NCBI GenBank assembly: GCA_033344815.1
Contig: JAWPMR010000001.1
Location: 854,136 to 918,135, forward strand
Source: Paracoccaceae bacterium
Lineage (GTDB): Bacteria; Pseudomonadota; Alphaproteobacteria; Rhodobacterales; Rhodobacteraceae
Reading direction: 5' to 3'
Length of the DNA stretch: 64,000 nt
Numbering within the stretch: position 1 is the stretch's first letter; each line of letters starts with the position of its first letter. Below the pieces are notes generated by a model. The model was given only the letters and a program-made list of their open reading frames with translations, ran no database searches and had not been told where the DNA came from. This document shows, piece after piece, positions 48,434 to 63,655 of this stretch. The translations under genes were made by a program, and so were the position numbers.

Positions 48434-48452
48434 GATGCAGTTTCACGGTGGT

Positions 48453-48481
48453 GCGGTCCGGCAAATAGATTGCCGGACCGC
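48453..48481. repeat. 12-bp perfect hairpin between aglE and aglF
   Basis: GCGGTCCGGCAA (48453-48464) and TTGCCGGACCGC (48470-48481) form a perfect stem with a 5-nt loop. No T tract follows on the minus strand. The position, just after the binding-protein gene, fits an mRNA-stabilising or processing hairpin that raises AglE over the permeases. Confidence 0.7.
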
Positions 48482-48496
48482 CGTTTTGTGCTGGGG

Positions 48497-49888: not shown

Positions 49889-49920
49889 AGTGCTTATTAT
49901 CTACGCGCAAAGAATCACCT

Positions 49921-49932
49921 CAAAGCGCTTTG
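49921..49932. promoter_or_regulatory. Candidate AglR (LacI) operator 1
   Basis: CAAAGCGCTTTG is a perfect 12-bp palindrome with the central CG typical of LacI-family operators. It is in the aglE/aglR divergent spacer, nearer to aglE. Confidence 0.55.
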
Positions 49933-50001
49933 GATGCCTTGAACGTGGCTGAACGCTGTATATCTGTCAACTCATGGTTCGGTTTCATTTGCGTTTTCAA
50001 G

Positions 50002-50018
50002 GCGCTAGATTTTAGCGC
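50002..50018. promoter_or_regulatory. Candidate AglR operator 2
   Basis: GCGCTA-GATTT-TAGCGC is an interrupted palindrome about 80 bp from operator 1, between it and the aglR start. It shares the GCGCT half-site core with operator 1. Confidence 0.4.
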
Positions 50019-50104
50019 TCCGACTTACACTGTTTGGCCTTTGACGAAAGCGATCCACCTGCATAGGCTGGCACGGTTGAGCACAGAAAAGACGTCCGGA
50101 TTTT

Positions 50105-51127
50105 ATGAACTTACGAGAATTGTCAAAACGGTTGAACCTGTCGCAAACGACGGTCAGCCGTGCCCTGAACGGGTATCCGGAAGTCAATGAAGCCACGCGA
50201 AAGCGCGTTGCTGATGCCGCAGCACTTTATAATTATCTTCCCAACGTGCGCGCCCAACGACTGGCAACGGGACGTTCCATGTCAATCGGACACATCATTC
50301 CGCTTTCAAAACAAAACGAGATGGTGAATATCGTCTTTGCCGATTTCATCACCGGCGCGGGTGAGGTCTACTCTCGGCATGGCTACAACATGACGCTTAC
50401 CGTTGTGCGCGATGAAGACGAGTTGAACACCTACCGCATTATGGCAGAACAGGGTGCGGTGGATGGCATTATAGTGCATTCTCCCACCCGTAATGATCCG
50501 CGCATCTCATTTCTGGCCGATCTGGATATCCCATTTCTGGTGCATGGGCGCGCGTCGGAGGTCCGTATCGAATATTCGTGGATGGACGTGAATAACAAGC
50601 GCGCCATCGAAAAAGGCACGCAATACCTGTTGGACCTCGGGCATGAACGCATCGGGTTTATCAACGGTCAGGAACATATGGATTTTGCGCAACGCCGCCG
50701 CGAGGGATATCTCGCAGCGTTTGCGGCACGCGACCTGAAACCGACTGAGGCGCGCATGCGTACGGGTGAGATGAGCGAGCCTTTTGGGCACGCCTCAACG
50801 CTTGAGATGCTGGACAGCGATGATCCCCCAACCGCATTTGTTGCTTCCTCCATCGTGCCCGCGTTGGGTATTCGTCGTGCCGTTGAGGAACGAGGGTTAC
50901 GCATGGGGCGGGATGTTTCAATCCTGTGTTTTGATGATGATATCTCCTATCTTCCCAATGGTTTGGATGCGCCGGTATTCACCGCGATGCGCTCTTCTGT
51001 GCGCGATGCCGGGCGTCGTTGCGCCGAGCTTTTGATGGAACAGATTTCCACGGCCTCGCGCGAGATCAGAACCGAACTTTGGGACGCAGAATTGGTGATC
51101 GGGCAGTCCACCGGCCCATGCCCTTGA
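50105..51127 (+). CDS. aglR: LacI-family regulator AglR
   Basis: A 340-residue LacI-type repressor. The HTH and hinge are in residues 1-60 ('MNLRELSKRLNLSQTTVSRALNGYPEVNEATRKRV', 'RLATGRSM'). A periplasmic-binding-protein-like sugar-sensing domain follows ('SIGHIIPLSKQNEMVNIVF', 'FVASSIVPALGIRRAVEE', 'SILCFDDDISYLPNGLDAPVFT'). It is divergent from aglEFGAK, the same context as rhizobial AglR, and is cotranscribed with the GH1 gene 10 bp downstream. Confidence 0.92.
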   Translation: MNLRELSKRLNLSQTTVSRALNGYPEVNEATRKRVADAAALYNYLPNVRAQRLATGRSMSIGHIIPLSKQNEMVNIVFADFITGAGEVYSRHGYNMTLTVVRDEDELNTYRIMAEQGAVDGIIVHSPTRNDPRISFLADLDIPFLVHGRASEVRIEYSWMDVNNKRAIEKGTQYLLDLGHERIGFINGQEHMDFAQRRREGYLAAFAARDLKPTEARMRTGEMSEPFGHASTLEMLDSDDPPTAFVASSIVPALGIRRAVEERGLRMGRDVSILCFDDDISYLPNGLDAPVFTAMRSSVRDAGRRCAELLMEQISTASREIRTELWDAELVIGQSTGPCP

Positions 51128-51137
51128 AGGACAAGAC

Positions 51138-52451
51138 ATGAATTTCAAACGATCAGACTTCCCACAAGATTTTCAATTCGCAGCCGCCACCTCGAGCTAT
51201 CAGATCGAGGGTCATAAATTTGGCGGTGCGGGCAAAACCCATTGGGACACCTTCGCCGCCACACCCGGGAATGTGGTGCGCGCAGAAAACGGCGATATCG
51301 CCTGTGATCACTATCACCGGATGGACGAAGACCTCGATCTGATGCAAGCGCTTGGGCTTGATGCGTACCGGTTTTCTACCAGCTGGGCGCGGGTTCTGCC
51401 GGAGGGGCGCGGTACGCCAAACCCTGAAGGGCTTGATTTTTATGACCGATTGGTGGATGGACTGCTGGCGCGCGGGTTGAACCCGATGGCGACGCTCTAT
51501 CACTGGGAACTTCCCGTGCCACTGGCGGATCTGGGCGGCTGGCGCAATCCGGACATTGCCCATTGGTTTGCTGATTTCGCCACTGTGATCATGGAACGGA
51601 TCGGGGATCGGGTGTTCAGCGTCGCGCCCATAAACGAGCCGTGGTGTGTTGGCTGGCTGTCGCATTTCATGGGACATCACGCGCCGGGCCTGCGCGACAT
51701 CCGCGCCACCGCCCATGCCATGCATCACGTGTTGACGGGACATGGTCGGGCCATTCAGGCAATGCGCGCGTTGGGTGTGAAAAACCTCGGAGCGGTGTGT
51801 AATTTTGAATACGCAAACCCCGTGGATGACAGCGCAGAGGCCGCATCGGCCTCACAGCTTTATGACGGCTACTACAACCGCTTCTTTTTGGGCGGTTTGT
51901 TCAAAGGCGCATATCCAGATGACGTCATGGCAGGACTTGGTCCTCATATGCCCAAGGGCTGGGAAGATGATTTCGATCTGATTGGGCAGCCTCTGGATTG
52001 GTGTGGGTTAAACTACTACACCTGCAAACGCATTGCACCCAATGATGGTCCCTGGCCTGCACATGACGAAGTTCCCGGCCCTTTGCCCAAAACACAGATG
52101 GGATGGGAAATTTACCCTGAGGGGCTGCATCATTTCCTGACCTGGGTACATGAGAATTACACGAAAGGCTTGCCGCTCTATGTTACCGAAAATGGCATGT
52201 CGAACCCGGATGAAATCGATGTGCCGGATACCGCACGGATTGATTACCTCAACGCCCATATTGCATCGGCACAACAGGCTATGGCAGAGGGCGTCCCGCT
52301 TGCGGGCTATACGTTCTGGTCGCTGATGGACAATTACGAATGGGCGCTGGGGTATGAAAAACGCTTTGGCCTGATTCATGTAGATTTTGAAACGCTGAAA
52401 CGCACACCCAAAGCCTCCTATCATGCCTTGGCAGCGGCGTTGAAACGGTAA
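51138..52451 (+). CDS. Beta-glucosidase (GH1)
   Basis: A 437-residue GH1 enzyme. The acid/base Glu is in 'APINEPWCVG' (about residue 165) and the nucleophile Glu in 'YVTENGMSNP' (about 350). Further family signatures are 'FAAATSSYQIEG', 'DAYRFSTSWARVLPEG' and 'FWSLMDNYEWALGYEKRFGL'. It has no signal peptide and so is cytoplasmic. Clustering with aglR suggests it widens the substrate range of the agl system to beta-linked sugars. It ends 3 bp from the convergent peroxidase gene. Confidence 0.95.
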   Translation: MNFKRSDFPQDFQFAAATSSYQIEGHKFGGAGKTHWDTFAATPGNVVRAENGDIACDHYHRMDEDLDLMQALGLDAYRFSTSWARVLPEGRGTPNPEGLDFYDRLVDGLLARGLNPMATLYHWELPVPLADLGGWRNPDIAHWFADFATVIMERIGDRVFSVAPINEPWCVGWLSHFMGHHAPGLRDIRATAHAMHHVLTGHGRAIQAMRALGVKNLGAVCNFEYANPVDDSAEAASASQLYDGYYNRFFLGGLFKGAYPDDVMAGLGPHMPKGWEDDFDLIGQPLDWCGLNYYTCKRIAPNDGPWPAHDEVPGPLPKTQMGWEIYPEGLHHFLTWVHENYTKGLPLYVTENGMSNPDEIDVPDTARIDYLNAHIASAQQAMAEGVPLAGYTFWSLMDNYEWALGYEKRFGLIHVDFETLKRTPKASYHALAAALKR

Positions 52452-52454
52452 GTT

Positions 52455-53735
52455 TCAGGGTTTGAACCACGCGGGCACGCCAAACGGTGGCGTATGGAGC
52501 GTGGTCCCAGTGAGGCTTTTCAGAAACGCGACGATCTGCGCGATTTCCGCGTCTTCCAGTGTTTGCGATTTTACCTTGACCGCCTGCGCTTGGCGCGCCA
52601 TTTCGCGTGCATCCGATTGAATTATGAAATCGGTTGCGGCCAACCACGGAACGGCGGGTAGGTTTGCGTCTTGCCTGTGCCATGCCGCGCGCGCCGACTG
52701 TGGATCAAGGTGATGACGCACCATGCTTCCCAAAGTGGGATAGGCCCCGTTGTGCCCATAGGGCGCGGTCAAGGCCACATTGCGCAACATCGGTGTTCGA
52801 AACGCATAGGCGTCCGCAATCCGATTGCTTTCGCCCATACGACCCACATCGCGCGCATAAGGGTCAAAAAGGCGCGTGCGGCCCGGGCCAAAGGCAGGCA
52901 AGCCAAGCGCGTGGAATCTCTGATCCGACATTAACGGCCCGGAATGGCAGCTGTTGCAACCTGCTTTGCCATAAAACAGATCCATTCCTGCCTTTTGCGG
53001 ATCTGTGAGTGCGTCGGATTTCCCCGCAAGGTATTGATCAAACGGGCTGTCGATACTGGTCCACTCAATTGCCATAAAAGCAGCCAGCGCATTGGCAATC
53101 TCAACGATTGTTACCTCCTCGGAGGTTTCAATATGATCGAAAGCTTCCACAAAACGCGCGCCGTAATCACCATCGGTCCGCACCCGTTTCGCCAATATCG
53201 GCCAAGCCCCATCAATTCGGTCGTGCACAGCCCCGATGATTTCGTTTTCACCGGGATTGCCTGCCATCTCGAATTGTGCGGTCAGCGGAAACAGAGCTTG
53301 CGCGGCCAGCAGAGAATTCAGACCATCAGGCAACCATTCCTCGGCGGGAGAATTGAAGCCATTACCAAAAATCTCCGATGTGCTGAGGCGCCCGTCATGA
53401 AACATCACGTGCAGATCACGCGCGCCAAGGTTCCATAGCCCGGGCGCATTGCGCGGAATGCGTTTGGCAATGCGCGACAGGCCCGTGCCGGGGGTGCGAT
53501 CCGGACCCAGGCCGCTGCCCCCCTCCCCGATACCCAGTGACAACCCGTCTCCGGTGCCAAAATCAGGATGATGGCAATGCGCACAGGTAATATTCCGGTT
53601 GCCCGACAAGATCGGATCGTAGAACAAGGACTGGCCCAGAGCCGCCTGTTTGTGATCAAATTCGAGAAAATCCGCTTGCGACAGGGGCCGCGGTAGATCA
53701 CCCGCCGTAGCTGCGAACGCAAAACAGGAGACCAA
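52455..53735 (-). CDS. Di-haem cytochrome-c peroxidase / MauG-like protein
   Basis: A protein of about 426 residues with two c-type haem sites: 'CAHCH' (about residue 56) and 'CNSCH' (about residue 245). The distal region reads 'TPMLRNVALTAPYGHNGAYPTLGSMVRHH'. This is the bacterial CcpA/MauG fold acting in the periplasm on peroxide or as an oxidase. The start is uncertain: TTG 53735 gives a short export signal ('VSCFAFAATAG'). The open frame runs on to 54167 but lies antisense to the Sel1 gene there and has no ATG before it. Confidence 0.85.
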   Translation of the reverse strand: MVSCFAFAATAGDLPRPLSQADFLEFDHKQAALGQSLFYDPILSGNRNITCAHCHHPDFGTGDGLSLGIGEGGSGLGPDRTPGTGLSRIAKRIPRNAPGLWNLGARDLHVMFHDGRLSTSEIFGNGFNSPAEEWLPDGLNSLLAAQALFPLTAQFEMAGNPGENEIIGAVHDRIDGAWPILAKRVRTDGDYGARFVEAFDHIETSEEVTIVEIANALAAFMAIEWTSIDSPFDQYLAGKSDALTDPQKAGMDLFYGKAGCNSCHSGPLMSDQRFHALGLPAFGPGRTRLFDPYARDVGRMGESNRIADAYAFRTPMLRNVALTAPYGHNGAYPTLGSMVRHHLDPQSARAAWHRQDANLPAVPWLAATDFIIQSDAREMARQAQAVKVKSQTLEDAEIAQIVAFLKSLTGTTLHTPPFGVPAWFKP

Positions 53736-53741
53736 AACCCA

Positions 53742-54212
53742 ATGCGCACCATACTTCTTGCCTGCACATTGCTTGCCGCCCCCGCGTTTGCGGAGATCGA
53801 AGAAGCGCGCGATATGATGGAGGCCGGTCAATTTGAAGAAGCCTACGAAGCACTTTGGCCCGCCGCGCGGTCGGGCAATGCCGACGCAGAAGAGCTGATC
53901 GGCGTGATGTATGCCATGGGCCTCGGTGTGCCGCGCGATGACGTGCGCGCGTTTGAATGGTATCTGCGCTCGGCGATGAAGGGGCATCCGGGTGCGCAAT
54001 CTGGTGTTGGATGGTACTATGAGGTCGGGCGCGGATTGCCTAGCGTTGACCTTACGCGCGCCTATATGTGGTACACGCTTTCCGCCATTGGCGGTGATCC
54101 TGACGCCGCGATCAGCCTGGAAGAGGTCGTCAAGAAAATGACGCCGGAAGAGATCGAAAAAGCGCATGTCCTAGTGGCCGACTACAAGGTCTGGATGTAT
54201 CCGTTTCGGTGA
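53742..54212 (+). CDS. Sel1-repeat exported protein
   Basis: A 156-residue protein with a signal peptide ('RTILLACTLLAAPAFA', about residue 17) and two or three Sel1 repeats ('AAR-SGNADAEELIGVMYAMGLGVPRDDVRAFEWYLRSAMKGHPGAQSGVGWYYEVGRGLP'). Sel1 repeats are solenoid scaffolds for protein contacts in the periplasm. GGAG lies about 12 nt before ATG 53742. It is divergent from the peroxidase gene with almost no spacer, so the two may share control. Confidence 0.88.
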   Translation: MRTILLACTLLAAPAFAEIEEARDMMEAGQFEEAYEALWPAARSGNADAEELIGVMYAMGLGVPRDDVRAFEWYLRSAMKGHPGAQSGVGWYYEVGRGLPSVDLTRAYMWYTLSAIGGDPDAAISLEEVVKKMTPEEIEKAHVLVADYKVWMYPFR

Positions 54213-54215
54213 TCG

Positions 54216-54240
54216 GGGGCGGCCAAAGACCGCCCCTTTT
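54216..54240 (+). terminator. Terminator after the Sel1 gene
   Basis: GGGGCGG and CCGCCCC pair around a 7-nt loop and are followed by TTTT. It lies a few bases past the Sel1 stop and also separates it from the convergent TRAP dctP. Confidence 0.85.
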
Positions 54241-54244
54241 CGGT

Positions 54245-55303
54245 TTAGTTCAAGTCTGCCGCGCGGGCTTCGCCAAGCTCAGCTTCGGCCTCAGCAACCG
54301 CTTCCGCGAGCGCGTCAAAAATTTCCTCGCCCCGTCCGACGTTGCCTTTGAACCAGTCAAACACAGGTGCGGCACCTTCTTTGAAGGCCGCTTTCTGCTC
54401 AGGTGTTGGGACATAAAGATCGCCACCTTCGGCCACGAATTGCTCGTAGGCGGCGATAGATTTACGCTTGGGCGAGGCAAATGTCGCCTGTTGCAGCGCA
54501 TAGAACCCATCCACCACAACGCGGCGCATATCTTCGGGCATCTCAAGGAATTTTGCGTTGTTCATCCACCACAGCGCGCCCATGTAAGCGTGGCCGTCCA
54601 GCGTGACATATTTCAATCCCGCATCGGGGAATTTCATGCCCATAATGTCGGTAATGCCGTTTTTGGAGCCCTCGACAACGCCGGTCTGAAAAGAGGTGAA
54701 CAATTCAGGCCACGGGATCGGTGTCGGGGCTGCACCAAGTGCTTTGACCAGCTCTTGCGGCAGGTCCGCCACAACCGTACGGATCTTCAGCCCTTCCATG
54801 TCCGACGGCTCTGCCACGCGACGTTTGGTATTGGCAAAGTTGCGCCACCCGCCCGTGTTGCCGATGGTCATCAAGCGGATTGTGTCACCGGAGTCCTCCA
54901 GCGCCATGGCGCGCATTTTGCGGGTGAAATCGCCCGACAGAACCGTTTCTGCAATCCGGTCATCTGCCATCAGGTAAGGCAGGTCAAGCACCTGAACATA
55001 AGGGAAAATCCCCGAGGCACCGCCCGAAGTAGACACATAGACGTCGATGGTTCCATCTGCGACGCCCTGCAGACATTCCGCACCATTGCCACACAATTGT
55101 GTTCCGATGAACAGTTCAACCTCGATTGCACCATTGGACGCGGCTTCAACGTAGTTTTTGAACACGACCAGACCATCATAGTCTTCGTCATTCTCATTGG
55201 AATTGGCCGTGGCGCGGATCTTAAAGTCCGCGGCGGACGCAGCCATCGCCGTACCGGCAAGCAACGCCGCCAAGGTCAAAGTCTTTAGTGTATTTTTCAG
55301 CAT
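54245..55303 (-). CDS. dctP: TRAP transporter substrate-binding protein (DctP)
   Basis: A 352-residue periplasmic binding protein. ATG 55303 follows GGGAGAGAGC and is preferred over the upstream in-frame start at 55339. It has a signal peptide ('LTLAALLAGTAMAASA'), then 'FKIRATANSNENDEDYDGLVVFKNYVEAASNG', 'MTIGNTGGWRNFANTKR', the Arg-containing 'LKIRTVVADLPQELVKALGAAPTPIPW' and 'SFQTGVVEGSKNGITDIMG'. It is the last gene of the minus-strand operon that begins with the flavin monooxygenase. Unlike the first two TRAP operons, dctP comes after dctQM. The genes before it suggest a sulfonate such as sulfoquinovose as substrate. Confidence 0.92.
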   Translation of the reverse strand: MLKNTLKTLTLAALLAGTAMAASAADFKIRATANSNENDEDYDGLVVFKNYVEAASNGAIEVELFIGTQLCGNGAECLQGVADGTIDVYVSTSGGASGIFPYVQVLDLPYLMADDRIAETVLSGDFTRKMRAMALEDSGDTIRLMTIGNTGGWRNFANTKRRVAEPSDMEGLKIRTVVADLPQELVKALGAAPTPIPWPELFTSFQTGVVEGSKNGITDIMGMKFPDAGLKYVTLDGHAYMGALWWMNNAKFLEMPEDMRRVVVDGFYALQQATFASPKRKSIAAYEQFVAEGGDLYVPTPEQKAAFKEGAAPVFDWFKGNVGRGEEIFDALAEAVAEAEAELGEARAADLN

Positions 55304-55328
55304 TAAGCTCTCTCCCGTTAGATTATAG

Positions 55329-56618
55329 TTAGTTTGCAAAGCCCGTCAGTCGCGGGACGGTCATGGATAGCGCCGGTATGTAGGTGATCAGGAAAATCAC
55401 TAAGATCTCCACCGCGAGGAAAGGCAGGATCGCTTTGGAAATTGCTTCCACGCGTTCGCCCGACACCGACGAGGCCACGAATAAAACCAGCCCCATGGGC
55501 GGTGTCGCCAGCCCCACTGTCAGATTGACGCTCATGATGATCGCGAAATGGATCGGATCGACGCCGAGACTAACAAAGATGGGTCCTAAAATCGGCCCCA
55601 GAATGATGATTGCCGGACCCGCATCCAAAAACATCCCCACAACGAACAACAACAGATTGATCAGGAACAATAGGATCAGGGGGTTGCTGGTCAGGCTGAG
55701 CACAAATTCAGCCATGGCTTCAGGTGCGTGGCTCAGGCTGACGACCGTCTTGAAGGCCATGGCGGCCCCGACCAGCAGCAGAACTACCGCAGAGGTGATC
55801 CCTGCCCGGTTCAGCACATCCGGAAGATCGCTGAGTTTCAGCGTCCGCATGACAAATAACCCGATGACCAGCGCATAGGCCACAGCAACAGCCGCGGCTT
55901 CAGTGGGGGTAAATACGCCCGCCAAGATACCACCCAGAATAATGACAGGCGTCATCAATGGGAAAAACGCCTTGAGGCTCGCTTGACCGCGTTCACCCCA
56001 TGAGTGCTTTTTCGTGGCCACGGGGAAATCGTATTTATCCGCCTGAAACTTCACCATCAACATGAGGCCAAGACCGACCATAATGCCCGGCACAATGCCC
56101 GCGAGGAACAACGCAGCAACGCTTTCGCCCATCACATAGGCATAGATGATCATGATGCCCGAAGGCGGAATAATAGGCCCAATGACCGAGCTGGCCGCGG
56201 TAATGGCGGCGGCAAATTTGCGCGTGTAGCCCTGTTTTTCCATGGCCGGGATCAGCATGGACCCAAGCGCGGAGGTATCCGCCACAGCAGACCCTGACAG
56301 ACCGGCAAAAAGCATCGAGGACAGGATGTTCACATGTGCCAAACCACCGCGAAAATGCCCCATCATGGCTTGAGCAAATTCGACCAGCCGCATGGTAATG
56401 CCGCCCTTGTTCATCAGCTCGCCCGCGAGCATGAAGAAGGGAATGGCCATCAGTGGAAAACTGTCCATCCCATTGTAAACGTTACGGTACAGGAGTGTGA
56501 TGTCTTTTTCCTGACCGTTCAGCCAGAGCAGGATACCCGGCGCGGCCAGAAGGCCAAAAAACACCGGCAGACCGATCAACAAGAAAACGAGGAAAAGCGG
56601 GAGAAACCATACCAGCAT
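55329..56618 (-). CDS. dctM: TRAP transporter large permease (DctM)
   Basis: A 429-residue permease with the usual DctM elements ('MLFAGLSGSAVADTSALGSMLIPAMEKQGYTRKFAAAITAASSVIGPIIPPSGIMIIYAYV', 'GGILAGVFTPTEAAAVAVAYAL'). The start overlaps the dctQ stop. It is in operon with dctQ (upstream) and dctP (25 bp downstream). Confidence 0.95.
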   Translation of the reverse strand: MLVWFLPLFLVFLLIGLPVFFGLLAAPGILLWLNGQEKDITLLYRNVYNGMDSFPLMAIPFFMLAGELMNKGGITMRLVEFAQAMMGHFRGGLAHVNILSSMLFAGLSGSAVADTSALGSMLIPAMEKQGYTRKFAAAITAASSVIGPIIPPSGIMIIYAYVMGESVAALFLAGIVPGIMVGLGLMLMVKFQADKYDFPVATKKHSWGERGQASLKAFFPLMTPVIILGGILAGVFTPTEAAAVAVAYALVIGLFVMRTLKLSDLPDVLNRAGITSAVVLLLVGAAMAFKTVVSLSHAPEAMAEFVLSLTSNPLILLFLINLLLFVVGMFLDAGPAIIILGPILGPIFVSLGVDPIHFAIIMSVNLTVGLATPPMGLVLFVASSVSGERVEAISKAILPFLAVEILVIFLITYIPALSMTVPRLTGFAN

Positions 56619-57208
56619 TATTCAGCTCCCACTTGTTCTTCGAGAGAAATGGGAGGCAGACGATCTTCGCCGCCCATCATTTTCACGATCGCGCGCAGGA
56701 TCAATTCCACGTTCACGGAAATGAGCAGTGCAACGCCCAGCAAGAGCGATGCCATCATCCAACTGCGTGGCACGCGCAGCCAGTTCTCAAAGGTTAAATC
56801 CGTCGGAACATAAAGCGAGGCCGTAGCGAATTTACCCGCAAATCCCGTCACTTCGGACCACCCGATCTGCACAGCGACGATCAAAACGCCGAGGCTCAGA
56901 AACAGGAGGATCAGCGTGATAACAGCCCCGATGCGCGCGGGCAACAAGCGCACCAGCGTATCAATGGCGACAAACCCGCCGCGCCGGAAGGCTGTCGGTG
57001 CCATCAAACCGGTCATCCACATCATGCAGAAACGTGCGGCCTCGTCGGGCCAAGGCAGCGCGCTGTTTAACGCGTATCGGAAGAAAACTTGAATCAGGAT
57101 CGCGACGACCATTGCGGCCACGGCAAACACGCCGATGGCGCGTCCAAGCGTCAGCAAGGCCTCATTGACCAGCCGGAGCGGTGTCATCACCGCCAGCAAT
57201 GCTCCCAT
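56618..57208 (-). CDS. dctQ: TRAP transporter small permease (DctQ)
   Basis: A 196-residue membrane protein with four helices: 'FAVAAMVVAILIQVFFRYALN', 'DEAARFCMMWMTGLMAPTAF', 'AVITLILLFLSLGVLIVAVQIG' and 'SWMMASLLLGVALLISVNVEL'. GGGAGGAGGC lies before ATG 57208. An 80-bp spacer with a GCGCAGG/CCTGCGC hairpin separates it from the flavin reductase gene on the same strand. Confidence 0.92.
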   Translation of the reverse strand: MGALLAVMTPLRLVNEALLTLGRAIGVFAVAAMVVAILIQVFFRYALNSALPWPDEAARFCMMWMTGLMAPTAFRRGGFVAIDTLVRLLPARIGAVITLILLFLSLGVLIVAVQIGWSEVTGFAGKFATASLYVPTDLTFENWLRVPRSWMMASLLLGVALLISVNVELILRAIVKMMGGEDRLPPISLEEQVGAE

Positions 57209-57251
57209 GTCGGAGCCTCCTCCCTTGTGCCCGGGTATTCCGGGTCACCGC

Positions 57252-57270
57252 GCGCAGGTTTTCCCTGCGC
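57252..57270. repeat. Hairpin between flavin reductase and dctQ
   Basis: GCGCAGG (57252-57258) and CCTGCGC (57264-57270) form a perfect 7-bp stem with a 5-nt loop. No T tract follows, so it is more likely an mRNA processing or stability hairpin than a terminator. Confidence 0.5.
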
Positions 57271-57288
57271 CCTTCATTGGTTGGCCCT

Positions 57289-57813
57289 TTAAGCCTTTTT
57301 GTCAAACCTTCTAAAGCGGCCTTGGCAAAAAATCAGCGCCTCCCCCTCCCGGGAGGCGGCTGACAGGACCCGACCCAGAACAATCGAATGATCGCCTGCG
57401 TCATGAATTTGGTGTGTCACGCATTCAAATCGCGCCAGACAATCGTTCAGCAATGGCACGCCTTGCGCGTTGAATGTGACGTCCAACCCATCAAACGCCT
57501 GACCCGATTTGGCAAATGCCATGGCGACATCTTCGTGCTCAGGCGCCATCACATGGATCGCAAAATTTTGCGCTTGGATGAAGGCATGATACCGACTGGA
57601 TGATTTCGCCGGGCTCCACATCACAAGGGCCGGATCCATCGAAATGCTGGAAAAGGAATTTGCCGTCATGCCAATCGGGCCTTGCGGCGTTTGTGCCGTT
57701 ACCACGGTCACCCCGGTGGCGAACTGACCCAAGGCATTGCGAAATTGCCTCTGTGTATCAGCGCCGGGCGCGAAGTGATTCATCTGCGCCATTTGCCGTG
57801 TGCCATCTGCCAT
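57289..57813 (-). CDS. Flavin reductase (SmoA/SsuE-like partner)
   Basis: A 174-residue FMN-binding split-barrel reductase: 'FRNALGQFATGVTVVTAQTPQGPIGMTANSFSSISMDPALVMWSP' (flavin-binding loop) and 'DAGDHSIVLGRVLSAASREGEALIF'. It would supply reduced FMN to the adjacent SsuD-like monooxygenase. ATG 57813 overlaps the AKR stop by one base (TGATG), with AGGAGG upstream. In Agrobacterium's sulfoquinovose monooxygenase pathway the equivalent is SmoA. It is also similar to the stand-alone protein at 36610. Confidence 0.9.
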   Translation of the reverse strand: MADGTRQMAQMNHFAPGADTQRQFRNALGQFATGVTVVTAQTPQGPIGMTANSFSSISMDPALVMWSPAKSSSRYHAFIQAQNFAIHVMAPEHEDVAMAFAKSGQAFDGLDVTFNAQGVPLLNDCLARFECVTHQIHDAGDHSIVLGRVLSAASREGEALIFCQGRFRRFDKKA

Positions 57814-58703
57814 CACGCGACCTCCTGTCCGTTTGCGGCTTCAAAAAGTTCAAACCAGGTTTGGCGATCCATTTCGACCTTGAAAGCATCGCTGAATGTG
57901 GCGATGCGTGACAGCGTATTTGTCCCCATCACGGGCATAATTCCAGCGGGGTGCGCCAATAACCAGGCAACAGCAACTGCGGCACGATCAACGCCTTGCG
58001 CGGCACCAATTTCGTCCATCTTGGCGCTCAGAGGATTTGTTTCCGTCATCAAGGACCCACCGCCGAGGGGCGACCACGCCATGGGTTTGATCTTATGCTG
58101 TTGCAGATGCGCCAGATCGCCATTGGTGTAACTGTCCCGCGCGGCCAGCGACATTTCAATCTGGTTTGTCACCAAACGGTTGTTCATCGCGGATTGCAAT
58201 AAATCCCAATCCCATGGTCGGAAATTGGACACTCCGACAGCGCGTACTTTGCCGCTTTGGATCAAGGCATCCAATGCGCCACCGGTTTCTTCGGCATCCA
58301 TCATCGGATCAGGGCGGTGGATCAGCAACAGATCAATCTGCTCAATGCCCATATAGGTCAACGACGCCTCGACCGAGGCCTGAATATGCGCCGCTGACGT
58401 GTCATAGTATTTGACCCGCCGGTCGCTGTATTTGCCGATGGGCGCAACGATGTCACATTTTGTCACGATTTCAAGCTGATCGCGCAAACCGGGGCTTTGT
58501 TTCAAACACGCACCCAACACCTCTTCGGCGGCATAGCCCCCATAGATATCTGCCTGATCCATCGTGGTAATGCCCTGCGCAAGACAAGCATCAATCTTGG
58601 CACGCACGTGATCGGGCGCGGTGTTTGTGTCATCGGCCAGACGCCACATGCCATAGATAATGCGGCTGAATTGCAGGGTGTCGGAAAGGGCAATGCGTTC
58701 CAT
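57813..58703 (-). CDS. Aldo/keto reductase (YdhF/SmoB-like)
   Basis: A 296-residue AKR-superfamily protein. The catalytic tetrad is Asp49 and Tyr54 ('DQADIYGGY'), Lys82 ('VTKCDI') and His129 ('LLLIHRPDP'). The strand pattern 'VGVSNFRPWDWDLLQ' and 'MAWSPLGGGSL' places it in the YdhF-like subgroup. In the oxidative sulfoquinovose pathway SmoB, an enzyme of this family, reduces 6-oxo-glucose from the monooxygenase to glucose. Its start overlaps the monooxygenase gene's stop, so all three enzymes are translationally coupled. Confidence 0.9.
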   Translation of the reverse strand: MERIALSDTLQFSRIIYGMWRLADDTNTAPDHVRAKIDACLAQGITTMDQADIYGGYAAEEVLGACLKQSPGLRDQLEIVTKCDIVAPIGKYSDRRVKYYDTSAAHIQASVEASLTYMGIEQIDLLLIHRPDPMMDAEETGGALDALIQSGKVRAVGVSNFRPWDWDLLQSAMNNRLVTNQIEMSLAARDSYTNGDLAHLQQHKIKPMAWSPLGGGSLMTETNPLSAKMDEIGAAQGVDRAAVAVAWLLAHPAGIMPVMGTNTLSRIATFSDAFKVEMDRQTWFELFEAANGQEVA

Positions 58704-59857
58704 CAGCGGCGTTCTCCGGCGGCAAGTGGGGTTTTTGGCGCAGCGTTTGGCACGCGCCCATAGGCTTCTGGCAAGGAGCAGGTTTTTAGGTGCGGCATCA
58801 CCAAACGTCCAAAATGCTCGGCTTCTTCAATGTGCGGATACCCGGAGAAAATGAACGCCCGGATGCCCATTTTCCGGTAAGCTTCGATCTCGGAAAGAAC
58901 CTGATCGGCGGACCCGACCAAGGCCGCGCCACATCCAGACCGCGCGCGCCCGACGCCCGTCCACAAATGAGGCTCAACATAGCCAAACTCATCCGCAATA
59001 TCGCGGTTTTTCGACTGATGCGACACACCAAGCGAGGTCGAATCCAAAGCCCGTTCGCGAATTTTGCGGCCATAGTCGTCATCTAATTTAGAGACGATGT
59101 AATCGGCGTATTCTTTCGCCTCGGCTTCGGTATCGCGCACAATCATATGCACGCGCAGGCCGTAATCCAGCGTGCGCCCTTTTTCAGCCGCCCGTGTGTG
59201 TACCGCCTGCATCCGTCCGGCGATCTGATCTTTGGGCTCTGGCCACATCAGATAAACGTCACAATGTTCAGCGCAAAGATCCAACGCTGCCGGAGAATAC
59301 CCCCCGAAATACAACAGTGGCCCGCCTGTTTGATAGGGGCGTACCGGGTCCGTTGTGACCTTTTCGAATTGGTAAACTTCGCCTTGATGATCGATCTCAT
59401 CGCGCGTCCAGGCCTGTTTGAGGATTTCCACAACCTCGCGGGACCGTTGATAGCGAAAATTACTTTCTGCTTTTTCGCCCGGGAAATCAGAGCTGATGAT
59501 ATTGACCGTCAAACGGCCCTCCAGCATGTGATCAAGGGTGGCAATCGTGCGCGCCAACATGATGGGCTGCATCTCCCCACAGCGCACGGCGGCCAGCAGG
59601 TTGATTTTATCAGTGATCGGCGCGCAGCCCGCCACAAAACTCAACGTGTCCTGCCCCACCTGATAGGACGATGGGCACAGAATATTGCGAAACCCCTGCG
59701 CCTCAGCGGTTTTCACGATATCCGAACAATGCTTCCAGGAAGAGCGCAGATCACCATCCGGCACACCCAAGAATTGATAGTCATCAGAGCACAGAGCCGA
59801 AAACCAGGACACTTCCGCCGCATCTAAATCTGCTGAGGTTACCGGCACGATCGTCAT
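58703..59857 (-). CDS. SsuD-like flavin-dependent sulfonate monooxygenase (SmoC candidate)
   Basis: A 384-residue luciferase-like, flavin-dependent monooxygenase (SsuD is 381). ATG 59857 follows AAGGGAAATCT; the frame upstream to 59977 is not protein-like. SsuD sulfonate-site residues have equivalents at Arg235 and His237 ('GLRVHMIVR'), Arg306 ('VGRARSGCGAALVG') and Tyr340 ('FSGYPHIEEAEH'). SsuD's Cys54 loop differs ('PSSYQVGQD'). Predicted reaction: oxidative removal of sulfite from an organosulfonate to leave an aldehyde. Coupling to an AKR and a flavin reductase points to sulfoquinovose, though other sulfonates are possible. First gene of the six-gene operon. Confidence 0.88.
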   Translation of the reverse strand: MTIVPVTSADLDAAEVSWFSALCSDDYQFLGVPDGDLRSSWKHCSDIVKTAEAQGFRNILCPSSYQVGQDTLSFVAGCAPITDKINLLAAVRCGEMQPIMLARTIATLDHMLEGRLTVNIISSDFPGEKAESNFRYQRSREVVEILKQAWTRDEIDHQGEVYQFEKVTTDPVRPYQTGGPLLYFGGYSPAALDLCAEHCDVYLMWPEPKDQIAGRMQAVHTRAAEKGRTLDYGLRVHMIVRDTEAEAKEYADYIVSKLDDDYGRKIRERALDSTSLGVSHQSKNRDIADEFGYVEPHLWTGVGRARSGCGAALVGSADQVLSEIEAYRKMGIRAFIFSGYPHIEEAEHFGRLVMPHLKTCSLPEAYGRVPNAAPKTPLAAGERR

Positions 59858-59912
59858 AGATTTCCCTTTGCACGCCTTGATATGAATTGCCCCTTGAATA
59901 GCACTCACAAAC

Positions 59913-59934
59913 TGGTAGATCAATGGTGTATCAA
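59913..59934. promoter_or_regulatory. Tandem 11-nt repeat, candidate regulator site
   Basis: TGGTAGATCAA (59913-59923) is followed immediately by TGGTGTATCAA (59924-59934), differing at two bases. It lies in the 102-bp divergent spacer between the monooxygenase and HutC-type regulator genes, one helical turn apart. Confidence 0.45.
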
Positions 59935-59959
59935 TTTTCAAATCACGTTTACCCGCTTC

Positions 59960-60667
59960 ATGGTCACACCATCTCAAAACGCCAACACGCCGCCAAAATA
60001 TGTCCAGCTCAGCGAGTTGCTGGCGCGCGACATTGATGCGGGGCGTTTGCTGGATGGGGAACGTCTGCCGCCGGAACGCGACATGGCCGCATCACTTGGC
60101 ACCTCTATTGGCACCCTGCGCAAAGCCCTTGCCGTGCTGGAAAAAAAGGGATTGTTGCGCCGGGTTCAAGGCTCGGGCAACTATATTCAGAAATCCGTTG
60201 AAGCCGCTGGCGCATATCCGATGTTTCGCCTCGAATTGCTCTCGGGAGGCGGTTTGCCGACAGCTCAGGTTCTCACGCTGGATGTGATTCAAAAACCGAA
60301 AGACTTGCCCGCTTTTGGCACAAGCCCACGCGCCACGCGCATCCGCCGCCGCCGTTATCTCAATGATGTAGCAATTGCGGTTGAAGAAATCTGGCTCGAT
60401 GCCAGCGTGGGGGAATTGAGTGTCAATCGCCTCTCTGATTCTCTATATCAAACCTATCTCCAACAGCTGCATTTCTGGATCACGCGGGCAGAAGACCGCG
60501 TCAGCATCGGGTCGCTGCCCTCCTGGACTCCCGAAAGCTTTGGTCAGGGTGGTGCCACTTGCGGATACATCGAACGCTACAGTTGGTCGGATCACCCCAC
60601 CGCAATTGAATTCTCTCGCACATGGTTTGATACCGCCAAAGCCGTCTACGTGCAGCGGTTGAAATAA
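59960..60667 (+). CDS. GntR/HutC-family regulator (UTRA domain)
   Basis: A 235-residue regulator from ATG 59960; the in-frame upstream ATG 59882 would add residues with no family pattern. The winged HTH is at about residues 12-75 ('LARDIDAGRLLDGERLPPERDMAASLGTSIGTLRKALAVLEKKGLLRRVQGSGNYI'). The UTRA ligand domain follows ('RATRIRRRRYLNDVAIAVEEIWLDA', 'WSDHPTAIEFSRTWFDTAKAVYVQRL'). HutC-type members commonly respond to sugars or amino acids. It is divergent from the monooxygenase/TRAP operon and followed by the Gfo/Idh/MocA gene, so it is the likely local regulator. Confidence 0.9.
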   Translation: MVTPSQNANTPPKYVQLSELLARDIDAGRLLDGERLPPERDMAASLGTSIGTLRKALAVLEKKGLLRRVQGSGNYIQKSVEAAGAYPMFRLELLSGGGLPTAQVLTLDVIQKPKDLPAFGTSPRATRIRRRRYLNDVAIAVEEIWLDASVGELSVNRLSDSLYQTYLQQLHFWITRAEDRVSIGSLPSWTPESFGQGGATCGYIERYSWSDHPTAIEFSRTWFDTAKAVYVQRLK

Positions 60668-60678
60668 GGACAACGGAC

Positions 60679-61773
60679 ATGAGTAAGATCACTCGGTATG
60701 GCATGATCGGCTGCGGCATGATGGGTCAAGAACACTTGAAAAATATCGCGCTTTTGCCCGACACCTCTGTTAGCGCGATATTTGAGCCAAACGAGGACAT
60801 GCGCCGGATTGCCCATTCACTGGCACCCAAGGCGCGATTTGTGAGCTCATTGGCAGAGCTGCTGGAGGAGGATACGCTGGAGTGTCTCGTCATTGGCAGC
60901 CCCAACCATTGTCACGCGGAGCAGGTCGTGGAAATCGCCGAAAAGCGCCCCCTGCCCTTGTTGGTAGAAAAGCCATTGCTGACTGATCCTGCGGACATCC
61001 CAAGGTTGAAAAAGGTCTCAGCAGCCTATCCGGCGCCGATCTGGGTTGCGATGGAGTATCGCTATATGCCGCCCATTGCCGCTTTGCTGAACGAAGTGGA
61101 GGAGGTAACGGGCGGGGTCAGAATGCTAAGCATCCGTGAACATCGCTTTCCGTTTCTTCACAAGGTGGGCAACTGGAACCGGTTCAATCATCAGACCGGC
61201 GGCACCTTTGTCGAGAAATGCTGTCATTTTTTTGATCTGATGCGTCTGGTCATGGGTACGAAACCGATCCGGGTCATGGCCAGTGCGGCGCAATCGGTGA
61301 ACCACCTTGATGAGAATTACGATGGCGCCGTGCCCGATATCATCGACAATGGTTATGTGATTGTCGATTTTGAAGGCGGCAAGCGCGCCATGCTGGAGTT
61401 GTGCATGTTTGCCGAAGGCGCGCGGTATCAGGAGACCATTTCCGCCCTCGGCCCGCAGGGAAAAATCGAAGCATTCGTACCCGGACCGACCCGCTTCTGG
61501 CCTGACGATCTGGGGCCCGCACCAACACCTGTTCTGGAGGTCAGCCCCCGGTTCCCGAAAAAACCGCAGACGCGCAAGGTTCCGGTCGATCCGAACCTGT
61601 TGGAAGCGGGTGACCACAATGGATCCACATTTTATCAGCATCAACGGTTTCTCGAACTGATACGCGGGCAACGCAGCCAGCCGGATGTGTCTTTTAGCGA
61701 TGGTCTATGGGCCGTGGAAATGGGCATGGCCGCACAGATTTCCGCGCAGACTGGTCGGTCGATTGATCTGTAA
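60679..61773 (+). CDS. Gfo/Idh/MocA-family oxidoreductase
   Basis: A 364-residue NAD(P)-dependent sugar oxidoreductase. It has the Rossmann start 'YGMIGCGMMGQEHLKNIALLP', 'GSPNHCHAEQVV', the EKP motif 'LVEKPLLTD' and 'MEYRYMPPIAALLNEVEEV'. The catalytic His/Lys region is 'TGGTFVEKCCHFFDLMRLVMG'. Members oxidise or epimerise sugars and inositols. It is 11 bp after the regulator gene, and no other sugar enzyme is coupled to it, so a role in processing the monooxygenase product or a related hexose is inferred. Confidence 0.88.
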   Translation: MSKITRYGMIGCGMMGQEHLKNIALLPDTSVSAIFEPNEDMRRIAHSLAPKARFVSSLAELLEEDTLECLVIGSPNHCHAEQVVEIAEKRPLPLLVEKPLLTDPADIPRLKKVSAAYPAPIWVAMEYRYMPPIAALLNEVEEVTGGVRMLSIREHRFPFLHKVGNWNRFNHQTGGTFVEKCCHFFDLMRLVMGTKPIRVMASAAQSVNHLDENYDGAVPDIIDNGYVIVDFEGGKRAMLELCMFAEGARYQETISALGPQGKIEAFVPGPTRFWPDDLGPAPTPVLEVSPRFPKKPQTRKVPVDPNLLEAGDHNGSTFYQHQRFLELIRGQRSQPDVSFSDGLWAVEMGMAAQISAQTGRSIDL

Positions 61774-62042: not shown

Positions 62043-62786
62043 TCAGGAGAAAAGCATACCACCATTAATGTCGACATTTGCGCCTGTGATGAATGCCGAA
62101 TCTGCACTTGCGAGAAACAGAATCAGATTGGCAGTGTCATCGGTAGTCCCTTGCCGCTTGACCGGCGCCGCTGCCTCAAACCCGCGGCGACCTGCATCAG
62201 GTGTGTGGATGTTGTGGAAATCCGTATCGATCATCCCCGGACACAACGCGTTCACGCGAATATTGGGACCGACTTCCTTGGCCAGCGCGCGCGTCATCGT
62301 CATCACGGCACCCTTTGACGTGGCATAAGCAACCGCTCCCGGCCCACCGCCATCACGACCCGCCTGGCTGGCGAGGTTCACGATGGTTCCACGTTCCATA
62401 TGCGCCAGGCATGCCTTGGTCATCAGAAACATGCTGGTCAGGTTGAGTTCCATCACTGCATTCCAATGCGTAAGTGACATGTCAGAAATGGTTTTGCGCG
62501 CAATCAAGCCGCCCGCATTGTTCACCAGGATGTCGATGCCGCCAAACTCCGCGACGGTTTTCGCGACAAGTGCTTCGACATCTTCCAGTTTTGTAAGATC
62601 ACCCTTCATTGCAAAGGCCCGACCACCCTCGGCGGTAATTTGCGCGACCGCTGCATCCGCGCCTGTGCTGCTTGAATAGTAGTTGATCGTTACGTTCGCG
62701 CCTTCTGCTGCCAGTTTCAGCGCCGCGGCCTGCCCAATGTCTCGCCCCCCGCCGGTAACTATCGCGGTTTGCCCTGCAAGTTTCAT
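62043..62786 (-). CDS. Short-chain dehydrogenase/reductase
   Basis: A 247-residue SDR. It has the cofactor motif 'TGGGRDIGQAAALKL', 'NNAGGL', and the catalytic Ser in 'NLASQAG' with Tyr and Lys in 'YATSKGA'. The C-terminal 'ITGANVDINGGMLF' is normal for classical SDRs. The glycine-rich motif's 'GGGRDIG' suggests an NAD- or NADP-type SDR acting on a sugar or hydroxyacid. It is divergent from the FCD regulator with twin palindromes between them, so it is probably controlled by that regulator. Confidence 0.92.
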   Translation of the reverse strand: MKLAGQTAIVTGGGRDIGQAAALKLAAEGANVTINYYSSSTGADAAVAQITAEGGRAFAMKGDLTKLEDVEALVAKTVAEFGGIDILVNNAGGLIARKTISDMSLTHWNAVMELNLTSMFLMTKACLAHMERGTIVNLASQAGRDGGGPGAVAYATSKGAVMTMTRALAKEVGPNIRVNALCPGMIDTDFHNIHTPDAGRRGFEAAAPVKRQGTTDDTANLILFLASADSAFITGANVDINGGMLFS

Positions 62787-62815
62787 AAGGTGTTCCTTTT
62801 CATTTCATCTCGCTC

Positions 62816-62847
62816 TGGTATACTAGTTATTAAACTGGTATACCAGT
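62816..62847. promoter_or_regulatory. Two palindromic GntR-type operators 20 bp apart
   Basis: TGGTATACTA at 62816-62825 and TGGTATACCA at 62836-62845 (the second extended to the perfect ACTGGTATACCAGT at 62834-62847). They are 20 bp apart, about two helical turns, so two dimers could bind on the same face of the DNA. The TGGT-N2-ACCA form fits GntR-family sites. They lie between the SDR and FCD-regulator genes. Confidence 0.65.
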
Positions 62848-62953
62848 GAGAACTGGATCCTGCCGCGCTTATGCCAATGTGAAGCCAGGTATGGTGAAGT
62901 CCGTCGCATTTTCGCTCAAAAGGCTGAGGTTTGCATAACAAGGAAGGGATGGA

Positions 62954-63655
62954 ATGTCACAAGCCACACAATTCACCGGGCGACGCACGAGTGTTGATGA
63001 TATTTTCGAACACCTTCATGCGGAGATCCTGTCCTTGCGACTGCGGCCCGGCGACAAAATTTCGGAGGCCGAGGTCGCGGCACAATTCAATGTGTCACGC
63101 CAACCGGTGCGCGATGCGTTCAGCCGCCTTGCCACGCTCGATCTTTTGCTGATCCGCCCGCAACGCGCAACCGAAGTGAAACGCTTCTCAGCCCGCGAGA
63201 TCATCAAGTCCCGTTTTGTGCGCGCCGCTATTGAAAAGGAAGTTCTCGGACGCGCAGCGCTGCATTGCGACGCAACCGGCGCGGCACAACTTGACGCAGC
63301 CCTTGCGGCACAGGAACAAGCGATACACGATCGCGACGTGGATGCATTTGGCAAATTGGACTATGCGTTCCACAAGACCCTGTGCACAATTGCCAAGGTA
63401 GATTTTGCCTTTGATGTCATTTCTGCCGAAAAGTCCAAGGTTGATCGTCTATGCACTCTGAGCCTGTCGAAATGGGATCGTGTGCCCGAATTGCTGGCAG
63501 ATCACCGAAATATTGCCGAAGCCATAAAAACCCATGACGCTGACAAAGCGGTCACGTGCGGCATGTGGCACTTGTCGCGGCTGGATGACACGATTGAGCA
63601 GATTTCGCAAACCAATGCAGGCTATTTCGAACCTGCTGACCCGCGGAGCAAATGA
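62954..63655 (+). CDS. GntR-family regulator (FCD domain)
   Basis: A 233-residue FadR/FCD regulator. HTH at about residues 15-75 ('LHAEILSLRLRPGDKISEAEVAAQFNVSRQPVRDAFSRLATLDLLLIRPQRATEV'). A helical FCD domain follows ('DAFGKLDYAFHKTLCTIAKVDFAFDVISAEK'). AAGGAAGGGATGGA precedes ATG 62954. It very likely binds the twin palindromes just upstream and controls both itself and the divergent SDR. Confidence 0.92.
   Translation: MSQATQFTGRRTSVDDIFEHLHAEILSLRLRPGDKISEAEVAAQFNVSRQPVRDAFSRLATLDLLLIRPQRATEVKRFSAREIIKSRFVRAAIEKEVLGRAALHCDATGAAQLDAALAAQEQAIHDRDVDAFGKLDYAFHKTLCTIAKVDFAFDVISAEKSKVDRLCTLSLSKWDRVPELLADHRNIAEAIKTHDADKAVTCGMWHLSRLDDTIEQISQTNAGYFEPADPRSK

Follow-up and report, generated by a model that had tools for sequence, protein, structure and literature searches.

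The sulfo-SMO (smo) cluster of Agrobacterium was reportedly described by Sharma et al. in 2022, and its sulfoquinovosidase belongs to family GH31. In the accessible text of PMC9594981, this cluster comprises an ABC transporter for the glycerol glycoside of sulfoquinovose (SQGro) and a sulfoquinovosidase. GH188-bearing clusters of the sulfo-SMO pathway have already been published for Roseobacters: the excerpts of Kaur et al. (2023; PMC10755693) present GH188 as near-universal in these clusters and do not name their importer. The locus analyzed here comes from the same clade and is very likely a cluster of the same kind. It has in common with the Agrobacterium cluster the C–S cleaving core formed by SmoC, SmoB and a flavin reductase, whereas the ABC importer and the GH31 enzyme of Agrobacterium are replaced here by a TRAP importer and a GH188 enzyme. 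No TRAP importer for sulfoquinovose (SQ) was found in the literature searched, which covers part of the work on SQ in Roseobacters; among the matches listed, no paper contained both sulfoquinovose and a TRAP-type term, and TRAP is unmentioned in PMC13372026 and PMC12890257. One further paper found does pair sulfoquinovose with a TRAP transporter, the latter concerning sulfolactate.

The window (the whole stretch of 64,000 nucleotides analyzed) contains a marine Roseobacter locus with six genes on the minus strand: smoC (58703-59857), smoB (57813-58703), smoA (57289-57813, with an alternative GTG at 57816), dctQ (56618-57208), dctM (55329-56618), and dctP (54245-55303, ATG at 55303). They are predicted to code for an FMNH2-dependent sulfoquinovose monooxygenase (Pfam Bac_luciferase), an aldo-keto reductase converting 6-oxo-glucose to glucose (Aldo_ket_red), a flavin reductase serving SmoC (PF01613, Flavin_Reduct), and the small permease (PF04290, E 1.5e-22), large permease (PF06808, E 3.8e-122) and binding protein (PF03480) of a TRAP transporter, all six products scoring clearly above the Pfam family cut-offs. 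Two divergent genes lie on the plus strand: gntR (59960-60667), for a GntR/HutC-type regulator (PF00392 and PF07702, UTRA), and sqgA (60679-61773). This agrees with a preliminary description of this DNA made from the sequence alone, which had listed six open reading frames in this order, the first three coupled by overlapping starts and stops, and a divergent HutC regulator. Stop and start codons overlap in smoC/smoB and smoB/smoA, as well as in dctQ/dctM; gaps of 80 nt separate smoA from dctQ and of 25 nt dctM from dctP, measured from the dctP ATG. The second divergent gene had been taken for a Gfo/Idh/MocA enzyme, a family assignment that Pfam upholds; its product is nevertheless predicted to be a GH188 sulfoquinovosidase (see below). 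The same six-gene order, sought in relatives as had been suggested, was present in 40 of 55 SmoC loci, so that the arrangement is not due to chance and is not peculiar to this genome.

SmoC was 78.1% identical to PDB 7olf and 77.0% to 7oh2 (383 residues), which we take to be SmoC proteins of the sulfolytic SQ monooxygenase pathway. The PDB names of these two entries are methanesulfonate sulfonatase and alkanesulfonate monooxygenase. SmoB showed 68.9% identity over 296 residues to 7bby, presumably SmoB (456 bits, against 208-211 bits for YdhF-like chains); the PDB name of this entry is aryl-alcohol dehydrogenase. SmoA was 55% identical to the flavin reductase adjoining smoC in Rhizobium sp. SL42, and its tentative assignment comes from PF01613, a profile that does not separate SmoA from other flavin reductases, and from its conserved position in the loci of relatives; its best NCBIfam match was FerA, under the cut-off of that model. 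The two structural matches agree with the SmoC and SmoB assignments originally proposed, and they support the prediction that a sulfolytic SQ monooxygenase (sulfo-SMO) pathway is encoded here. Concerning the fate of sulfite, the Mo-co_dimer sulfite oxidase profile (PF03404) had no match in the genome, whereas 2 of the 14 control genomes gave one in the same search. Matches to PF03601, a putative sulfate exporter family, lay only elsewhere in the chromosome, away from the locus.

SqgA matched the GH188 structures 8qc2 (E 1.1e-106) and 8qc3 (E 8.2e-106) (FlSqgA, ArSqgA), as well as 8zn9 (E 3.4e-184). The similarity to 8qc3 extends over the full length, with 170 of 358 aligned residues identical (47%). 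In the part of PMC10755693 available, the residues of ArSqgA that contact SQ are K107, Y136, R166, L170, K172, E189, H193, and H321; all eight, which include the catalytic and sulfonate-binding positions, are identical in SqgA (K98, Y127, R156, L160, K162, E179, H183, and H313). A ninth named residue, E163, aligns with V, and the position after it holds a conserved E, so that its numbering is unsettled. No signal peptide was recognized in SqgA by eye. On the basis of sequence and active-site residues, 60679-61773 is thus predicted to code for a GH188 NAD+-dependent sulfoquinovosidase and, since this enzyme belongs to the locus, the latter should handle SQ glycosides besides SQ.

All three subunits of a TRAP DctPQM transporter are encoded, and DctP contains the arginine of such binding proteins. 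As had been noted before, dctQMP stands in the place of the ABC sulfosugar importer of Agrobacterium type, which is absent from the cluster. DctP is a binding protein of the same type as IseP of the isethionate transporter IsePQM, with 29% identity (89 of 308 aligned residues). According to the excerpts of PMC11668362, from which the roles of the IseP residues are taken, R156, R177, N217, and W200 anchor the anionic ligand (the sulfonate); these four are kept in DctP, whereas the isethionate contacts N98, Y153, and H244 are replaced by G97, G153, and A245. In the same excerpts the R156/R177/N217 anchor takes carboxylates as well as sulfonates, and therefore it does not name the ligand of DctP. 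An AlphaFold model of DctP, calculated from 16 similar sequences, was too unsure for use (mean pLDDT 60, pTM 0.62).

The distribution of these genes was analyzed in 193 genomes, including the one under study, with SmoC present in 56 and a DctP orthologue in 53. Both occurred together in 42 of the 193 genomes and shared one locus every time (Fisher p 3e-20, not corrected for kinship). The eight-gene block sqgA-gntR/smoCBA-dctQMP was found in 39 of the 55 SmoC loci of relatives; 14 of the 55 showed no DctP, and nine of the 14 had no recognizable importer of another kind. Since the type of importer varies among SmoC loci, the ABC importer was not treated as defining the pathway. DctP without SmoC was found in 11 relatives, and in eight of them it was adjacent to a second, unrelated SQ module, scored as GH188 together with two or more of three enzymes: an SQ-isomerase-like protein, a PfkB resembling sulfofructose kinase, and an aldolase of LacD/YihT type. 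These sulfo-EMP2-like loci (L087, L088, L090, L093-L097, and L140, among others; L094 had no aldolase match) resemble the GH188-bearing sulfo-EMP clusters in the available text of PMC10755693 in combining GH188 with isomerase, kinase and aldolase, and differ from them, as far as that text goes, in holding the same TRAP orthologue as the smo loci. For the L097 isomerase, a comparison with the PDB gave nothing at E 1e-5, and its role was consequently assigned from NCBIfam NF048012 (260 bits, under the 700-bit cut-off). A quick DctP tree required at least seven changes between the two SQ modules. In addition, locus L092 contained TRAP genes and a SmoA-like gene, and lacked SmoC and SmoB.

Three other readings of the locus were weighed. 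That these genes form a general operon of SsuD/MsuD type, desulfonating alkanesulfonates or methanesulfonate for sulfur supply, has in its favor that SmoC is a flavin monooxygenase of the SsuD family and, as pointed out earlier, keeps the Arg/His/Arg/Tyr set of SsuD: R226, H228, R297, and Y331, in what we take to be the numbering of the sulfonate site, align with SmoC R235, H237, R306, and Y340. The comparison with SsuD already envisaged gave only 32.2% identity over 345 residues (PDB 1m41), against the 78.1% to 7olf, and on the SsuD equivalog TIGR03565 SmoC scored 253.6 bits, below the cut-off of 518.2; moreover, such an operon has no place for the sugar enzymes SmoB and SqgA. Identity and profile score ruled out the assignment of SmoC to SsuD/MsuD, and we give this reading hardly any credence. 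The preliminary description had suggested a TRAP-fed variant taking up free SQ or a related sulfonate, and had seen no GH31-type sulfoquinovosidase in the window; a second reading is accordingly a pathway for free SQ only, for lack of a sulfoquinovosidase. The SmoA, SmoB and SmoC enzymes would fit such a pathway, and the lack of a GH31 enzyme in the window extends to the whole genome, where PF01055 had no match (the same search was positive in 6 of 14 control genomes). Against it, sqgA is a GH188 gene by sequence and active site, and a GH188 gene accompanies 52 of the 55 SmoC loci of relatives, one of the three without it (L066) ending near the cluster. The reading was dropped on the GH188 match and the kept residues, and is improbable.

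It is also unlikely, if slightly less so, that the TRAP transporter simply lies next to the smo genes and imports some other compound, for which isethionate, another C3 sulfonate-like substrate or a sugar acid might be candidates. The arginine anchor, indifferent to carboxylate or sulfonate in the available text of PMC11668362, would allow this, and three DctP loci (L121, L145, and L089) carry TRAP genes with neither SQ module within 9-10 kb on either side. In contrast, one orthologue accompanies two unrelated SQ modules, and given the sulfo-EMP2 loci mere adjacency is unlikely; a relative of the sulfosugar-type ABC binding protein of Marinovum was seen in none of the 100 SmoC loci that have TRAP, as opposed to 4 of the 14 that lack it; smoA and dctQ lie at most 211 nt apart in 98 loci; and the isethionate contacts of IseP are lost in DctP. 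Since the same DctP stands beside two SQ modules, and the ABC protein was not seen where TRAP is present, SQ or SQGro is the likely cargo predicted for the transporter, a sulfonate related to SQ being a possible one.

Upstream of gntR, a candidate operator, ATTGATACANNATTGATCTAC (59915-59935, minus strand), is the only site within three mismatches in the 5.08 Mb genome. The likely start of gntR is at 59960 (MVTPSQN), beyond this site, the longest reading frame beginning at 59882. A near form of the candidate operator was detected in 74 of 114 SmoC loci and in none of 18 sulfo-EMP2 loci; a looser pattern was less specific (88 of 114 and 2 of 18, respectively, and two further sites in the window). 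We propose that GntR regulates both transcripts from this one candidate operator. At the other end, a terminator-like inverted repeat (54215-54237, unstranded, listed on the plus strand) separates dctP from a convergent gene for a Sel1-repeat protein (53742-54212, plus strand; PF08238); 15 terminator-like sites were found against a shuffle mean of 9.2, and the repeat is therefore weak. The Sel1 gene is a frequent neighbor of dctP (within 1.5 kb in 93 of 132 loci), as is a gene for a di-haem cytochrome c peroxidase/MauG family protein (here 52455-53684, start uncertain, minus strand; PF03150, E 8.9e-34), lying within 3.5 kb in 100 of 132.

The reading that we consider highly probable is a complete sulfolytic SQ utilization locus, with TRAP import, SqgA, SmoCBA and GntR control. 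Flux would start with DctP and DctQM moving SQ, and probably also SQGro, across the inner membrane, glycosides being hydrolyzed in the cytoplasm by SqgA with NAD+. SmoA would supply reduced flavin to SmoC, which would cleave the C–S bond to yield sulfite and 6-oxo-glucose, the latter being reduced to glucose by SmoB; GntR/UTRA would repress both divergent transcripts until an SQ-derived ligand binds. A wider proposal, to which we give even chances, is that DctPQM is the first sulfo-sugar TRAP importer, for SQ and for intact SQGro, which GH188 would then hydrolyze in the cytoplasm. It would serve marine Alphaproteobacteria as a constant entry point, while the unrelated cytoplasmic modules behind it, the sulfolytic SmoCBA (releasing sulfite) and the sulfoglycolytic sulfo-EMP2 (releasing a C3 sulfonate), would have been repeatedly exchanged, with Sel1 and di-haem peroxidase as frequent companions.

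SQ is produced at about ten billion tons per year, according to the excerpts of PMC10755693. The mode of its import bears on which substrate marine bacteria compete for, the free sugar, which is rare, or its glycosides, which are commoner. TRAP transporters use an ion gradient in place of ATP, which suits seawater. If confirmed, the dctP family would be a marker of SQ uptake in ocean metagenomes, whichever pathway of degradation follows. Modules swapped behind a single importer would also offer a natural experiment on what determines whether sulfite is released or a C3 sulfonate, which feeds others.

The six minus-strand genes of the locus are smoC (58703-59857), smoB (57813-58703), smoA (57289-57813), dctQ (56618-57208), dctM (55329-56618) and dctP (54245-55303). 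The open reading frames in the window bear out the positions and order given in the preliminary description, and the Pfam names agree with the six gene assignments. The overlaps it described among the first three genes are also seen, stop and start codons overlapping at smoC/smoB and smoB/smoA, and likewise at dctQ/dctM. The smoA-dctQ gap is 80 nt; across 98 loci that carry the six genes on the same strand, this distance, measured between match ends, had its median at 78.5 nt and did not exceed 211 nt. In two loci the dctM distance was absurd because a second dctM-like gene had been picked. SmoC was 78.1% identical to PDB 7olf and 77.0% to 7oh2 (383 residues), both of which we take to be SmoC, a name that the PDB itself does not give them, as against 32.2% to Escherichia coli SsuD (1m41; 345 residues). 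SmoB was 68.9% identical to 7bby, presumably SmoB under another PDB name, and its best match scored 456 bits versus 208-211 for YdhF-like chains. The SsuD sulfonate-site residues, in the SsuD numbering that we assume, have the expected equivalents in SmoC when aligned (R235, H237, R306 and Y340). Profiles do not set the flavin reductase apart from others of its kind, and its role as SmoA is assigned from its position and its 55% identity to the flavin reductase adjoining smoC in Rhizobium sp. SL42.

Divergent from these genes, on the plus strand, lie a gntR/hutC-type regulator gene (59960-60667) and sqgA (60679-61773). The product of sqgA matched FlSqgA (8qc2; E 1.1e-106) and ArSqgA (8qc3; E 8.2e-106), which are GH188 NAD+-dependent sulfoquinovosidases, and chain 8zn9 (E 3.4e-184). 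In the text available from Kaur et al. (PMC10755693), which states both deposition codes, eight residues contact the hydroxyls and sulfonate of sulfoquinovose (SQ), and all eight are identical in aligned SqgA; E163 of that text does not match in our numbering, the next position holding a conserved E. The lack of a GH31 enzyme noted earlier holds for the whole genome (one contig of 5.08 Mb), in which PF01055 gave no match while the same search was positive in six of 14 control genomes. The locus does have a predicted sulfoquinovosidase, the gene previously described as Gfo/Idh/MocA being GH188 by match and residues. According to the same text, nearly all sulfo-SMO clusters of Roseobacters have GH188, and these bacteria had earlier been believed limited to the free sugar. 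By eye, SqgA opens straight into its Rossmann fold and is therefore expected to be cytoplasmic, so that the glycoside would need to be imported whole; the TRAP cargo would then be the SQ glycerol glycoside (SQGro) as well as SQ.

Among 193 genomes, the window's own included, SmoC was found in 56 (E 1e-100) and a DctP orthologue in 53, with one match each (E 1e-80; at most ten candidates scored per genome); 42 genomes had both, every time in one common locus. With the window's own locus left out, the six-gene order was present in 40 of 55 SmoC loci, a DctP orthologue in 41, the eight-gene order with divergent sqgA and gntR in 39, and any GH188 gene in 52. In named genomes, a set partly overlapping the first (e.g., L098/L033; L and G numbers denote individual loci and genomes) so that counts are not additive, DctP relatives were confirmed in at least 522 stretches; among the best 80, 59 had SmoC, 58 the eight-gene order, ten a second SQ module and 11 neither. 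Nine of these 11 lay less than 7 kb from a contig end on at least one side (exceptions, L121 and L145), and they included smoB in L133 and the DeoR gene of the second module in L170. The eight-gene block also occurred on plasmid records of Ruegeria sp. TM1040 and of Rhizobium sp. SL42, outside Rhodobacterales. L085 and L086 are diverged smo loci belonging to other families within the class: SmoC was 53% identical, smoB preceded smoC, GH188 adjoined and no TRAP match was seen. In L072 the TRAP genes come directly after smoC, and smoB, smoA and sqgA gave no match there.

A different gene set adjoined the TRAP genes in eight of the 11 relatives with DctP and no SmoC. In L097 it comprised a Fucose_iso_C protein matching the NCBIfam sulfoquinovose isomerase SftI (E 3e-77, below cut-off), a DeoC/LacD aldolase also matching sulfofructosephosphate aldolase YihT, an aldehyde dehydrogenase, a GH188 gene and a PfkB kinase; the L140 counterpart of this kinase has sulfofructose kinase 7ag6 as its nearest solved structure. 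By these resemblances, the set can be read as a sulfo-EMP2 layout. The other three relatives were L089, with neither module; L092, with only a smoA-like gene; and L091, with smoB, smoA, sqgA and gntR and no smoC. L091 also has the TRAP genes, and its gntR-smoB interval of only about 215 bases leaves no room for smoC; its genome had no SmoC at E 1e-100.

Between gntR and smoC we propose a candidate operator, ATTGATACACCATTGATCTAC (59915-59935, minus strand). It had no second site within three mismatches in the genome, a backwards control pattern had no site at all, and the pattern was absent from 100 shuffles of the window. Of 114 smo loci, 74 contained a near form, as against none of 18 sulfo-EMP2 loci. 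Three loci were not oriented; in the others the near form stood no more than 250 nt ahead of smoC in 67 of 97 with TRAP and five of 14 without. Several of 20 misses listed are one or two bases away from it, and a looser pattern reached 88/114 smo loci but also 2/18 sulfo-EMP2 loci. The site would be a GntR operator controlling this divergent promoter alone.

Two genes come after dctP (together 52455-54212): one, on the opposite strand, encodes a Sel1-repeat protein, the other a member of the di-haem cytochrome c peroxidase/MauG family. Downstream of dctP, the peroxidase was no farther than 3.5 kb away in 74/100 SMO, 16/18 sulfo-EMP2 and 10/14 other loci, and in several sulfo-EMP2 loci it separates dctP from the kinase or aldolase gene. 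The Sel1 and peroxidase pair often stands beside dctP under either module (e.g., L087, L088, L090, L095, L126, L140, L152 and L164). The tie is not strict: among 39 genomes whose peroxidase match reached at least 51% identity, 37 had a DctP orthologue (not G043 and G115), and in G075, G038, G076 and G099 the peroxidase was at least 13 kb away or on a different contig. Of 100 SMO loci with TRAP, 12 had a putative sulfate exporter of the PF03601 type. Such a gene, possibly an exit for sulfate or sulfite, follows the locus in L182 (17079-18104; Ruegeria sp. TM1040) and L179 (13926-14885; Rhizobium sp. SL42), by annotation, and in L121 (13001-13996; a Labrenzia), by PF03601; the window's genome has a PF03601 match about 1.3 Mb from the locus. 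Inspected by eye, the stretch adjoining the SQ locus (47438-52451) holds genes for a sugar ABC importer and a LacI-type regulator and one resembling a GH1 beta-glucosidase; sugar ABC genes adjoin the locus in several same-genus loci too. Beyond sqgA lie an SDR dehydrogenase, just above the cut-off of the glucose 1-dehydrogenase-like profile NF005559, and a divergent FCD-type GntR regulator (62043-63655); this pair had weak matches only (31-37%), in two of 66 loci.

The smo pathway and the GH188 gateway are already known in Roseobacters; a literature search covering few subscription journals found no account of TRAP as an SQ importer or of its occurrence beside two different pathways. Downstream of the smo genes of Marinovum algicola comes a sugar ABC importer; relatives of its binding protein occurred in four of 14 smo loci without TRAP, in none of 100 with TRAP and in none of 18 sulfo-EMP2 loci. 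TRAP-less L083 had a different ABC binding protein. In the other nine TRAP-less loci no importer was identified by a survey coarser than a gene-by-gene reading; one of them, L057, ends soon after smoB and is too short to judge. IseP is, according to its authors in the text available (PMC11668362), the first sulfonate-specific TRAP binding protein. The window's DctP is 29% identical to it (308 aligned residues) and shares R156, R177, N217 and W200, which are invariant in 16 DctP sequences; the arginine anchor serves carboxylates too. In contrast, IseP N98, Y153 and H244 are replaced by G97, G153 and A245, smaller residues that would leave space for a hexose. The structure model of DctP was too poor to inform. 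C73 and C79, six residues apart, are also invariant in the 16 sequences and possibly form a disulfide.

DctP orthologues 71-83% identical were seen in L121, L145 and L089, with no SMO or sulfo-EMP2 genes in the flanks examined, which would mean a third module or SQ genes in another place. L156 and L169, labelled as Gammaproteobacteria MAGs, carry DctP 80-82% identical to that of the Roseobacter, through horizontal transfer or misbinned contigs. A quick DctP tree comprised 79 rows (56 SMO, 18 sulfo-EMP2 and five other), chosen among 132 loci and the window itself. On it, the SMO and sulfo-EMP2 labels change at least seven times (the five other rows uncounted), and starred branches, at times overrated by the quick method, force at least five changes for sulfo-EMP2. 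These changes indicate that the importer stayed while the cytoplasmic pathway was exchanged repeatedly. The pairing of one importer with two pathways is strong context evidence that their shared cargo is SQ or its glycoside.
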